NCBI GenBank assembly: GCA_023146115.1
Contig: JAGLCS010000049.1
Span: 1 to 45,705, forward strand
Length of the DNA stretch: 45,705 bases
Source: Abyssibacter sp.
GTDB lineage: Bacteria; Pseudomonadota; Gammaproteobacteria; Nevskiales; OUC007
Direction: 5' to 3'
In this document: positions 26,145-30,543 of the stretch, piece after piece
Layout of the letters: each line of letters starts with the position of its first letter
How positions within the stretch are numbered: the stretch's first letter is position 1
Position numbers and translations under genes: made by a program
The notes under the pieces: model-generated
The model's database searches: none
What the model was told of the DNA's origin: nothing
What the model saw: only the letters and a program-made list of their open reading frames with translations

Positions 26145-26336
26145 ATGAACGATTCGGAACTGAGCGGGCTGGAAACGCGATTGCAGGCATTGCTCGCGGA
26201 TTACCGGCGTCTGGCTGAGCACAATCGCCTGCAGGATCGCGAACTCTCCGAACTGCGCGCCTCCAATGCCGAACTCAAGCGCCGGCTACGCTCCATTCTT
26301 GAGCGAATTCGTGCCCTTGAGGTCGAGACGGCTTAG
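26145..26336 (+). CDS. ZapB-like coiled-coil protein (TIGR02449 type)
   Basis: A 63-aa protein made of one long coiled coil (about residues 5-60, LETRLQALLADYRRLAEHN and following heptads). Small proteins of this kind lie directly before zapA in many gammaproteobacteria (family TIGR02449). By position and shape it may serve in the division machinery together with ZapA, but this is inferred. ATG 26145 has GAGG 9 bases upstream; the open frame further upstream lies inside the protease gene and is rejected. Confidence 0.85.
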   Translation: MNDSELSGLETRLQALLADYRRLAEHNRLQDRELSELRASNAELKRRLRSILERIRALEVETA

Positions 26337-26375
26337 GGCTTCCCCTGAGCCATCAACGCGAAAAAGGTTCCGAGC

Positions 26376-26687
26376 ATGGTGGATGAAGCAAGGTCGATCA
26401 CCGTCACGATCATGGGTCGCGAGTATCAGATCGCCTGCCCGCCCGAGGAACATGAGCGCCTGACCGAATGTGCCGAGTACCTCAACGGACGGATGAATGC
26501 GATCCGCAAGCGCGGACGCTCCATGGGTATCGAACGCATTGCCATCATGGCGGCGCTGAACATCGCACGCGATTTCCTGGATAACCGCGATGCTGGCTCC
26601 GACCATGGCGACGTGGACGAATCAGCACGCCGCCGGCTGCGGCAGATGGAATTGTCCATCGACCAGGCATTGTCGGAGCGAGGTTGA
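26376..26687 (+). CDS. zapA: cell division protein ZapA
   Basis: A 103-aa cytoplasmic protein that crosslinks FtsZ filaments. The N-terminal ZapA fold contains VTIMGREYQIACPPEEHERL (about 10-29) and AEYLNGRMNAIR (33-44), followed by IERIAIMAALNIARDFL (52-68) and a C-terminal coiled coil. Length is normal. The gene comes 39 bases after the ZapB-like gene and just before 6S RNA, the order seen in E. coli and relatives. Confidence 0.96.
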   Translation: MVDEARSITVTIMGREYQIACPPEEHERLTECAEYLNGRMNAIRKRGRSMGIERIAIMAALNIARDFLDNRDAGSDHGDVDESARRRLRQMELSIDQALSERG

Positions 26688-26750
26688 ACCCCCGCCTTCC
26701 TGGCAATGTCAAGCACTAGCCGAACGCGGCGAAATTCGGTGTAATGTGCA

Positions 26751-26939
26751 GGGTATCTCCTGCGGTGTTCGTCAGTGTGCCGGGTTACCTCCTGAGCCAA
26801 TGCACCACACCGGGGAGGGTTGGTCGCTCGTGGTGAGCACGTCCACTTCGGTGGAAAGCCTAAGCGGGTGATCCGAATCCCCACCTGAGATCATGTCTCA
26901 GGGTCAATGGCACGCAACGGCACAGGCGGGAGATGCCTT
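26751..26939 (+). ncRNA. ssrS: 6S RNA
   Basis: A roughly 188-nt RNA that binds sigma-70 RNA polymerase and damps transcription in stationary phase. The ends pair: GGTATCTCC (26752-26760) with GGAGATGCC (26929-26937). A second stem pairs GTGTGCC (26775-26781) with GGCACGC (26909-26915). Conserved parts include CCTGAGCC (26791-26798) and GGTTGGTCGC with GTGAGCA and AAAGCCT. The terminal stem is CCAC-TTCG-GTGG (26843-26854). Position between zapA and fthC is the standard one. TGTAAT at 26739-26744 would suit a -10 element for a start near 26751, with no clear -35. The 3' end overlaps the first codons of fthC. Confidence 0.92.
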
Positions 26940-27541
26940 CCCCAGATTCACTTTCGGAGCAGCGCAGCGCAATTCGCCGGCAGTTGCTTCGTGCGAGACG
27001 CTCGGTTGACGCCGCGACCCGTGCCGCGTTTCGAACGGCTGCGGTGGAGTTCGCGCTGTCGGATCCGCGAATCCGCCGAGCGCGCTCAGTCGCCGTCTAC
27101 CACGCCATGCGTACCGAGGCACCGACGGACGCCCTGATCAGGACGCTCTGGCGACAAGGCAAACAAGTCTTCCTCCCGATCGTGAGGGGGCGGCGAATGC
27201 GCTTTGTGCGTTACGGTCCCGACGCACGGCTGCATTCGCGCGCGATCGGCATGCACGAACCCCGAGGGACGTGGTTGGCCTCATCGCGGCAACTCGATGT
27301 CGTGTTTCTCCCTTTGACCGGTTTCGACTTGCAGGGCAATCGGCTCGGCCTTGGCGGGGGATTCTACGATCGCACGTTCGCCACCAGTCGCGCGGGCGGT
27401 CGCATCTGGCATCGCCCCAAGCTGATCGGACTCGCGTTTTCGGTGCAAGGCGTGGACAGATTGCCGATCGCCGCGCACGACGTGCCCTTGCACGGCATCG
27501 TGACCGAGCTTGGCGCGATCGATTTCCCGGCGACCGGTTAG
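26933..27541 (+). CDS. fthC: 5-formyltetrahydrofolate cyclo-ligase
   Basis: A 202-aa enzyme (YgfA family) that turns 5-formyl-THF into 5,10-methenyl-THF using ATP. The core runs from IRRQLLRARR (14-23) to VFLPLTGFDLQGNRLGLGGGFYDRT (about 124-148 in two parts), the ATP and folate loop. In E. coli it is co-transcribed with 6S RNA. Here ATG 26933 sits inside the closing stem of that RNA, with GGGAG only one base before it, so no proper ribosome site. No other ATG, GTG or TTG lies upstream in frame before the stop at 26861; a TTG at 26984 would still keep most of the domain. Confidence 0.93.
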   Translation: MPSPDSLSEQRSAIRRQLLRARRSVDAATRAAFRTAAVEFALSDPRIRRARSVAVYHAMRTEAPTDALIRTLWRQGKQVFLPIVRGRRMRFVRYGPDARLHSRAIGMHEPRGTWLASSRQLDVVFLPLTGFDLQGNRLGLGGGFYDRTFATSRAGGRIWHRPKLIGLAFSVQGVDRLPIAAHDVPLHGIVTELGAIDFPATG

Positions 27542-27584
27542 ACTCCCGCGCCGACACCCCAATCACCGACAAACGCGAGCAGAC

Positions 27585-28061
27585 ATGCAGTACTGGCTGA
27601 TGAAATCCGAGCCTAACGAGTTCTCATTCGATGATCTCAAGACCAGGCCCGAGCAAAAGGAACCCTGGGATGGCGTTCGCAATTACCAGGCTCGCAACAT
27701 GATGCGCGACGCGATGAAAGTCGGTGATGGCGTGCTGTTCTACCATTCCAATTGTGACGTGCCCGGCATCGTTGGTCTGGCCAAGGTTGCCAGCCTGCCA
27801 CGTCCCGACCACACGGCCTTCGACCCGGACGACAAGCACTTCGACCCCAAAAGCGACCCAGACAATCCACGCTGGTTTCTGATCGATGTGCAGTACGACC
27901 GACCGCTTCAACGCCCGATCGCCCTGGCGGAGATCAAGCAGCATGCCGACGCGCTGGACGGGCTGGCCCTGATTCGCCGTGGCAACCGCCTGTCGGTCAT
28001 GCCGGTGTCGGCCGAGCACTGGGACTACATCTTGGGGCTGGAGTCGGCCGACGCGCCCTGA
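27585..28061 (+). CDS. EVE-domain protein
   Basis: A 158-aa protein made of one EVE domain, a PUA-like fold that binds modified bases in nucleic acid; the human relative is THYN1. It begins with MQYWLMKSEPNEFSFDDL, and carries WDGVRNYQARNMMRDAM (about 28-44) and GVLFYHSN (49-56), all family-typical. A true target in bacteria is unknown. ATG 27585 starts the conserved fold; the open frame upstream overlaps fthC and is rejected. The order fthC-EVE is common in proteobacteria. It is convergent with ilvA. Confidence 0.93.
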   Translation: MQYWLMKSEPNEFSFDDLKTRPEQKEPWDGVRNYQARNMMRDAMKVGDGVLFYHSNCDVPGIVGLAKVASLPRPDHTAFDPDDKHFDPKSDPDNPRWFLIDVQYDRPLQRPIALAEIKQHADALDGLALIRRGNRLSVMPVSAEHWDYILGLESADAP

Positions 28062-28079
28062 CCGCGCAAGCCATCAGCG

Positions 28080-29633
28080 CTACCGCAAGAACATCCGATA
28101 CGCCGGGTTGCCCGACTCATCCCAGTACCGGTAACCGATGCGCTGCAGGCGATCAAGAAAGTCCTGCAGTTCGCCTTGCGGCACCTGGAAGCCGGCCAGC
28201 ACGCGACCAAAGGCTGCACCATGATTGCGGTAATGAAACAGCGAAATATTCCAGCGCCCCCCGAGCTGTTGTAGAAAGCGCATCAGCGCGCCGGGCCGCT
28301 CCGGAAACTCGAAGCGAAACAGACGTTCGTCCTGCAAGGCGTCCGCCCGACCACCGACCAGATGCCGCAGATGCACCTTGGCCACGTCGTTGTCGCTCAG
28401 GTCACTGATCTCGTAGCCCGCCTTGCGAAACTCGTCGCACAGCGCATCGCGCTCACGATCACCATCGCGGATCGCCACCCCCACGAAGATATGCGCCTTG
28501 GCGGCATCGGCATACCGGTAGTTGAACTCGGTCACCGCCCGTCGGCCGAGGAGCTCACAAAACTGCAGGAAACTGCCCGGCACCTCCGGCAAGGTCACGG
28601 CCAGCAAAGCCTCGCGGTGCGCGCCCAGAGCCGTACGCTCCGACACGTATCGCAGCCGGTCGAAATTCATGTTGGCGCCGCTCACCACCGCGACTAGTGT
28701 GCGGCCATGCAAGCCCCGGGCCTGAACGTCCCGCTCCAGCCCGGCTAGCGCCAGGGCGCCCGCTGGCTCGGGAACCGAACGCGTGTCTTCGAACACGGCG
28801 CGAATCGCCGCGCAGATCTCGTCCACCGAAACCTGGATGGTCCGGTCAACGCATTGCCGTGCGACGGCGAAGGGATAGGCGCCGATCTGGCGCACGGCCA
28901 CCCCATCAGCGAATAGCCCGACCTGATCCAGCACCACTCGCGCATCGGCCTTTAGCGCGTGGTGCAGGCAAGCAGAATCCAGCGGTTCGACCGCAACAAT
29001 CTCGGTGCCAGGGCGATGTCGTTTAATGTAGGCCGCCATTCCGGCGACCAGGCCACCGCCACCGACGGGAATGTAGACGGTGTCGATCGCATCGCGATGC
29101 TGATCGAGTATTTCCTTGGCGACCGTTCCCTGCCCGGCCATGACGTCGGGGTCGTCGTAAGGATGAATAAACGACTGACCCCGCTCGGCGATGAGCGAAT
29201 TCGCATGCGCCAGCGCGTCGTCATAAGCATCGCCCACCAACACGACCTCGGCTCCGTATGCGCGGACCGCATCGATCTTGATCGACGGCGTTGTCTCCGG
29301 CATGACGATCGTCGTCCGGATATCCAGCGCTTGCCCAGCCAGCGCAACGCCCTGGGCGTGGTTGCCCGCCGACGCCGCAACAACGCCCGCAGCACGCTGC
29401 GCTGGTGTCAGTTTGGCGATGCGGTTGTAGGCACCGCGCAACTTGAAGGAATGCACCGGCTGCGCGTCCTCGCGCTTGAGCCAGATCTGGTTGCCCAGCC
29501 GACCCGACAGCTTGGCGGCCGAGTCCAAGGGCGACACGCGGGCCACATCGTAGACCGTGGCCATGTCGATAGCCTGCGCCAGAGCGTCCAGGTCAACAGC
29601 GGGCCATGCCGCGGAGTCAGCAGCGTCATTCAT
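28080..29633 (-). CDS. ilvA: threonine ammonia-lyase, biosynthetic
   Basis: A 517-aa PLP enzyme that deaminates threonine to 2-oxobutanoate, the first step of isoleucine synthesis. PLP binds Lys64 in HSFKLRGAYN, and the phosphate loop is VGGGGLVAG. Two ACT-like regulatory domains at the C-terminus (about 340-515) should give isoleucine inhibition, as in the E. coli enzyme, which it follows closely in sequence and length. The frame is open on to 30200, across the whole proC region, but the conserved protein begins near ATG 29633. No good ribosome site precedes that ATG. It is divergent from proC across 58 bases. Confidence 0.97.
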   Translation of the reverse strand: MNDAADSAAWPAVDLDALAQAIDMATVYDVARVSPLDSAAKLSGRLGNQIWLKREDAQPVHSFKLRGAYNRIAKLTPAQRAAGVVAASAGNHAQGVALAGQALDIRTTIVMPETTPSIKIDAVRAYGAEVVLVGDAYDDALAHANSLIAERGQSFIHPYDDPDVMAGQGTVAKEILDQHRDAIDTVYIPVGGGGLVAGMAAYIKRHRPGTEIVAVEPLDSACLHHALKADARVVLDQVGLFADGVAVRQIGAYPFAVARQCVDRTIQVSVDEICAAIRAVFEDTRSVPEPAGALALAGLERDVQARGLHGRTLVAVVSGANMNFDRLRYVSERTALGAHREALLAVTLPEVPGSFLQFCELLGRRAVTEFNYRYADAAKAHIFVGVAIRDGDRERDALCDEFRKAGYEISDLSDNDVAKVHLRHLVGGRADALQDERLFRFEFPERPGALMRFLQQLGGRWNISLFHYRNHGAAFGRVLAGFQVPQGELQDFLDRLQRIGYRYWDESGNPAYRMFLR

Positions 29634-29691
29634 GCAAGGTAGACCGGAACGGCCTGCGGAGGAGTGTCGTCGTTTATCATACGGCGTCATC

Positions 29692-30543
29692 ATGATCGCA
29701 ACGAATCCTCCGACACCCCGCATCGGCTTTATTGGCGCCGGCAATCTCGCCACAAGTCTGATTGGCGGGCTCATCCAGGCCGGTTGGGCTCCCGACTCGC
29801 TATGCGCGGCGGATCCCTCCGATGCGAGACGCCAGCAGCTCACCGAGCAATTCGGTCTGCTGGTGTCACCGGAAAACGCGGACATCGTCCACCAGGCCGA
29901 TGTCGTCGTGCTGGCCGTCAAGCCGCAAATCATGCGAGCGGTGGCGACGGCCCTGTCACGTGCGCTGCATCCCGACCAAACCGTGGTGTCTGTCGCCGCC
30001 GGCATCCGCGGCGATGCGCTAACCAACTGGTTGAGCTCGACGTTGGGCACGCCGGGAGTGATCCGGGCAATGCCCAACACGCCAGCATTGCTTGGCGTCG
30101 GAGCGACCGGACTGGTCGCGGTCAACCCGGTGAATGAACTGGGGCGCACGACCTCGGAATCGATTTTTTCGGCAGTCGGCCAAGTCGAATGGCTGGACAA
30201 CGAAGCGCAGATCGACGCCGTTATCGCCGTCGCTGGCAGCGCACCAGCCTATTTCTTCGCGTTCATCGAAGCCCTGGCTCAAGGCGGCGAAGCGCTGGGT
30301 TTAAATGCCGACGTGTCGCAACGGTTGGCGATCCAGGCAGCACTGGGTGCGGCGCGGATGGCGGCCGAAACCGGTGAACCGGTCGCCACACTGCGCGAGC
30401 GGGTGACCTCCCCCGGCGGGACGACGGCCGAGGCATTGAAAGCGTTTCAGGCCGGTGACCTGGAGGGCCTGGTGCAGCGGGCGATGAATGCTGCGGTCGC
30501 GCGGGCACAGACGATGGCGGACGAATACGGAGCAACAAACTGA
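29692..30543 (+). CDS. proC: pyrroline-5-carboxylate reductase
   Basis: A 283-aa enzyme that reduces pyrroline-5-carboxylate to proline with NAD(P)H. The N-terminal Rossmann motif is GFIGAGNLATSLIGG (about 12-26), AVKPQ follows (about 83-87), and the C-terminal signature is RVTSPGGTTAEALKAF (about 238-253). In pseudomonads yggS usually precedes proC; here ilvA stands there instead. It overlaps yggT by one base (TGATG) and leads a five-gene overlapped operon. Confidence 0.97.
   Translation: MIATNPPTPRIGFIGAGNLATSLIGGLIQAGWAPDSLCAADPSDARRQQLTEQFGLLVSPENADIVHQADVVVLAVKPQIMRAVATALSRALHPDQTVVSVAAGIRGDALTNWLSSTLGTPGVIRAMPNTPALLGVGATGLVAVNPVNELGRTTSESIFSAVGQVEWLDNEAQIDAVIAVAGSAPAYFFAFIEALAQGGEALGLNADVSQRLAIQAALGAARMAAETGEPVATLRERVTSPGGTTAEALKAFQAGDLEGLVQRAMNAAVARAQTMADEYGATN

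Follow-up and report, generated by a model that had tools for sequence, protein, structure and literature searches.

Overlap of the 6S RNA gene with the probable start codon of fthC in Abyssibacter sp. and its relatives

The locus described here raises the question of where 6S RNA ends and where the gene behind it, fthC, begins, and of whether one RNA molecule can serve both. 6S RNA is the RNA that throttles RNA polymerase; members of this class bind the sigma-70 RNA polymerase, template the synthesis of pRNA and accumulate in stationary phase. The sequence analyzed, termed the window, is a stretch of 45,705 nucleotides from Abyssibacter sp. (GenBank assembly GCA_023146115.1, contig JAGLCS010000049.1, positions 1 to 45,705). 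The neighborhood of 6S RNA and fthC (ygfA) is among the most conserved RNA–gene neighborhoods in Proteobacteria, and the order zapA-6S-fthC is usual in beta- and gammaproteobacteria (PMC7641849). The purpose of this conserved link has been called unknown (PMC2848244). According to profile matches, the window presents the classical order zapA-ssrS-fthC, typical of Gammaproteobacteria, with the following features.

26376..26687, + strand: zapA, cell division protein (PF05164, 82.8 bits), the upstream neighbor
26754..26936, + strand: ssrS, the 6S RNA gene, in its Rfam bounds (RF00013, 72.3 bits, model 1-187)
26752..26763, + strand: 5′ arm of the outer closing stem of 6S RNA, from fold and covariation
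26926..26937, + strand: 3′ arm of the outer closing stem, containing the probable fthC start codon, from fold and covariation
26924..26929, + strand: AGGCGG, a weak Shine-Dalgarno-like motif within the 3′ arm (anti-SD duplex of -5.2 kcal/mol)
26933..26935, + strand: ATG, probable fthC start codon, the sole ATG, GTG or TTG from the upstream stop to the conserved domain, at the same position in genomes G001, G002 and G007
26933..27541, + strand: fthC, 5-formyltetrahydrofolate cyclo-ligase, 202 aa (PF01812, TIGR02727)
26984..26986, + strand: TTG, fthC codon 18, candidate alternative start, CTG in G001 and G002 and without a Shine-Dalgarno match
27585..28061, + strand: EVE-domain protein (PF01878, 194.3 bits), the downstream neighbor

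By profile match, the fthC product is a 5-formyltetrahydrofolate cyclo-ligase, with a near full-length match to PF01812 (147.7 bits, profile positions 2-186 of 186) and a score of 138.6 bits against the TIGR02727 equivalog, whose cut-off is 84.9; it is the single PF01812 match in the genome assembly. Further downstream, on the - strand (28080-30200), an open reading frame of 706 aa starting from TTG resembles a threonine dehydratase after roughly its first 200 residues, and its long upstream part is probably non-coding.

The ends of the RNA were checked with the 6S covariance model RF00013, which covered 26754-26936 as a whole-model match (1-187 of 187), scoring 72.3 bits (cut-off 46.4) with an E value of 1.9e-12. 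The pairing of GGTATCTCC (26752-26760) with GGAGATGCC (26929-26937), noticed in the preliminary description, was confirmed at nine of nine positions, the single wobble joining T26754 to G26935, the last base of the fthC ATG. Covariation was evaluated with 36 6S RNAs from the order aligned together with the E. coli one. The closing stem (19 pairs, ATG included) had 90.6% of its cells paired, compared with 29.6-60.3% in control stems slid along the alignment, and changes on both sides were found in 54 cells against 14.8 in shuffles, with none of 500 shuffles reaching the score. Ten of the 19 pairs presented changes on both sides; for the three pairs holding the ATG (columns 204-206), both sides had changed in 8, 10 and 10 sequences, respectively, and the covarying pairs extended to columns 207-208, corresponding to 26936-26937 in the window. 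Additionally, the annotated 3′ end of E. coli ssrS was found to align with 26936, three bases past the A of the ATG. By homology to that end, the ATG would lie within mature 6S RNA, and the initial placement of the fthC ATG inside the 3′ arm of the closing stem holds in its coordinates. The overlap of ssrS and fthC is almost certainly real.

The fthC frame is open from 26864, after the TAA at 26861-26863, and the ATG at 26933-26935 was the only ATG, GTG or TTG found ahead of the conserved domain, the next being the TTG at 26984. The observation that no other usual start lies upstream in this frame was thus accurate. The ATG, at position -3 relative to the 6S end, is likewise the sole usual start in both congeners (G001 and G002) and in G007, a member of another family. 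The AGGCGG motif ahead of it, with a duplex energy of -5.2 kcal/mol against a background 10th percentile of -5.7 and a median of -2.4, is not significant alone.

The best explanation overall, and probably the correct one, is that fthC uses a start codon located within the 3′ arm of the stem that closes 6S RNA, so that the two genes overlap, the gene having taken over a codon that lay in this arm. Provided that the E. coli 3′ end applies here, trimming or cleavage at that point would deprive an RNA of the fthC start, as first proposed on the grounds that maturation would sever the frame from its start, and an RNA retaining fthC would carry 6S sequence on its 5′ side. Since the bases are shared, it follows from the geometry that the same molecule would not give both outputs, and this exclusivity of 6S RNA and FthC per molecule is considered likely. 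As to a dual-function RNA, the same geometry would assign the RNA and coding functions to different molecules of one locus rather than to a single molecule.

Fold predictions pointed in the same direction as the earlier proposal that folding of 6S RNA hides the start codon. In the full-length RNA beginning at the 6S 5′ end, the predicted pairing probability of the ATG with the 5′ arm was 1.00 in the window, G001, G002 and G007. When the leader was shortened to 40 nt, the ATG was predicted to be unpaired at 0.92 in the window, 0.73 in G001, 0.35 in G002 and 0.58 in G007, the effect of truncation on its accessibility being uneven (0.35-0.92) among these four genomes with the -3 ATG. The full 6S fold would bury the fthC start, and FthC would be made from the smaller share of read-through RNAs whose 5′ arm is missing, has been cut away or has yet to pair; the majority of molecules would end up as 6S RNA and the FthC level would remain low. 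A simple scan for a terminator-like site between 6S and fthC found none. A probable origin of the overlap lies in the frequent GATGC ending of 6S RNA and in the G-rich sequence at its 3′ end, usable as a ribosome site; the overlap would then have been retained as the gene became dependent on it.

The arrangement was compared across 85 genomes of the order, 78 of which have 6S and fthC together. Frames were read in a fixed 6S register, since the Rfam ends are one base off in G009 and in G348 and truncated in G351, and the counts given by family are not independent of descent. In the neighboring family f2, the largest of the order, with 54 genomes compared, 49 have fthC reading in phase with the 6S 3′ arm. 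Of these 49, 44 have a start codon 22 bases before the arm end (43 ATG and one GTG), where the arm, ATGACGGCACAGGCGGGAGACAC, encodes the first codons MTAQAGDT. The other five in-frame genomes present a 6S-internal ATG at -28 (G354 and G355) or -43 (G053), or start outside the RNA (G347 and G348). The ATG at -22 is kept in 31 of the 31 f2 genomes that have no ATG, GTG or TTG from the 6S end to profile position 8. In contrast, ATG or GTG was found at -22 in 2 of the 24 genomes in which fthC is out of that frame or which belong to f4 and f6; the frames in f6 are spread 8/6/1.

With the ACGGC register as the zero point, the linkers of the in-frame f2 genomes measured 27-66 or 138, always differing by multiples of three, and those of the five out-of-frame genomes 50, 104, 143, 146 and 175. 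When genera were combined with linker lengths, 24 of 29 combinations were in the arm frame, with a binomial value against 1/3 of 6e-8, which is overstated since the genomes are related. A codon-position bias was sought in the f2 linker and none was found (179/165/178), so the frame appears to be kept to join the start and the domain and not for the linker sequence itself. The overlap in f2 differs from that of the window in its frame and lies deeper in the RNA. The comparison of related genomes suggested in the preliminary description thus bore out the overlap but not its standing as a single oddity, most of f2 having it. The 6S RNA of G003, which belongs to a sister genus, likewise ends in GATGC, with fthC starting in another frame at +28 or +34, where the contig ends. 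Since this genome shares the GATGC end and starts elsewhere, the ATG appears to have pre-existed as a feature of the RNA that became a start where the frame allowed, or else to have been abandoned. A further genome, G005 (family f3, locus L014), has fthC in the f2 frame, but its codon at -22 is GCT and the stretch past 6S offers no usual start; its sole in-frame candidate start is a TTG at -43, deep in 6S, and could be real, or the gene may use a rare start codon or contain a sequence error.

The overlap recurs in f1/f5 and in f2 with different frames and depths, and the ATG of the window is completely buried in the predicted fold; both observations would be expected of a selected switch, in which the overlap persists because FthC synthesis is switched off as 6S folds and matures, linking folate recycling to the growth phase. 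Against such a switch, fthC starts outside 6S in f6, f4, G003 and part of f2, which implies that the link is dispensable, and burial is not uniform between lineages, the f2 ATG abutting the stem and being predicted as partly paired (0.01-0.60 unpaired). Capture of a convenient start codon fits the data as well as a selected growth-phase switch does, and the overlap could be mere economy, relatives doing without it. The claim that RNA and protein would be mutually exclusive outputs of one transcript is kept as likely per molecule, on geometry and with a 3′ end as in E. coli, whereas its extension to a selected switch is possible but doubtful. Slightly more doubtful is an order-wide, selected exclusive-output locus, in which the 6S arm doubles as the fthC start and folding and maturation set the level of the folate enzyme.

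A separate promoter inside 6S would yield a short-leader or leaderless fthC mRNA, and the two products would then be made without competition. Genes of such size often have internal starts, and the predicted release of the window ATG in a 40-nt leader would suit such an mRNA; no sigma-70-type match was found in 26300-28200 by a scan that was crude and limited to that promoter type, and an internal promoter is considered unlikely.

Initiation at the TTG at 26984 or at a rare codon, with the ATG lying in 6S by chance, was evaluated against E. coli and other orders. In the current E. coli RefSeq annotation, ssrS ends at 3056165 and fau (ygfA) starts at 3056241, a gap of 75 nt, in agreement with the earlier statement that its coding region begins well after the 6S end. 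The RefSeq fau start codon aligns one residue before the TTG, making a protein without the first half of helix 1 conceivable. In E. coli MG1655 (locus L147, 860-944), the RefSeq fau ATG, at locus position 942, lies inside the conserved first helix, and an in-frame ATG at 888, 21 nt past ssrS, would give a longer N-terminus, as PRK10333 (198 positions) and the solved relatives suggest.

Outside the order, the 60 closest-spaced of 87 loci with 6S and fthC together (L065-L124) were examined, and the fthC start followed 6S in 58 of 60, often within 10-40 nt. At -3 of 6S, ATG occurs more often than any other triplet in these loci (17/60), as would be expected if its presence there were fortuitous, but just one of the 17 has it in frame with fthC (G238, which also has later starts), while the fthC frames overall are spread 23/20/17. 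By simple arithmetic ignoring relatedness, one in-frame case in 17 has a probability of about 0.01 under an expectation of 1/3, and other orders perhaps avoid an early start at the -3 ATG. Two loci from one genus of another order (G192 and G290; L089 and L097) have fthC with only GTG codons at -7/-10, inside 6S, and are possibly a separate case of the overlap.

The TTG itself, named at the outset as a later codon at which FthC might begin, is replaced by CTG in G001 and G002, and these congeners offer no further usual start as far as profile position 12; a Shine-Dalgarno match was looked for at the TTG and none was found, and on these two grounds it was rejected as the fthC start. The solved relatives of FthC align from query residues 7-14, ahead of codon 18. 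A true start at this TTG or at a rare codon is very improbable. Equally improbable is a mature 6S 3′ end before the ATG, with molecules that do not overlap, given covarying pairs up to 26936-26937 and an annotated E. coli end aligned with 26936.

The start codon within the 6S arm sets the window apart from similar loci already described. E. coli ssrS-ygfA (fau) has the same zapA-ssrS-fthC order and the same RNA and protein families, and there 6S and ygfA are reported to be co-transcribed (PMC2848244), the 6S 3′ end lying in the read-through transcript, as the title of a 2011 paper by Chae et al., listed in PMC10670590, states. However, fau starts 75 nt past ssrS (RefSeq), or 21 nt past it if the longer in-frame ORF is taken, and the genes do not overlap. 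With such a gap, one precursor could give both 6S RNA and a translatable fau RNA, which the window could not if its 3′ end is the same. In Coxiella and Alcanivorax, 6S lies in the 5′ UTR of ygfA (PMC4064990; PMC9788540), upstream of that gene as in the window, but an overlap with the coding region is not described there. Similarly, UpsM of R. sphaeroides and Rli51 of Listeria are small RNAs from the leader of a downstream gene; in the portions of those reports available, they are not 6S RNAs and are placed in the leader and not across the start codon. No report of an overlap of the fthC start with mature 6S RNA was found in the open literature searched, some key papers being outside it. Both parts of the locus are plain members of known families, and the overlap is a new variation on the known 6S-ygfA arrangement.

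The overlap affects the annotation of both genes, namely the Rfam ends of the RNA and the N-termini of FthC, and it subjects one end of a structured regulatory RNA to the constraints of protein coding. The shared bases make the link between 6S and fthC directly testable, as mutations in the stem arm, with and without compensation, would tell apart their consequences for the RNA and for the protein. If the exclusive-output reading is true, a global regulator of RNA polymerase would, through its folding and maturation, set the level of a folate enzyme.
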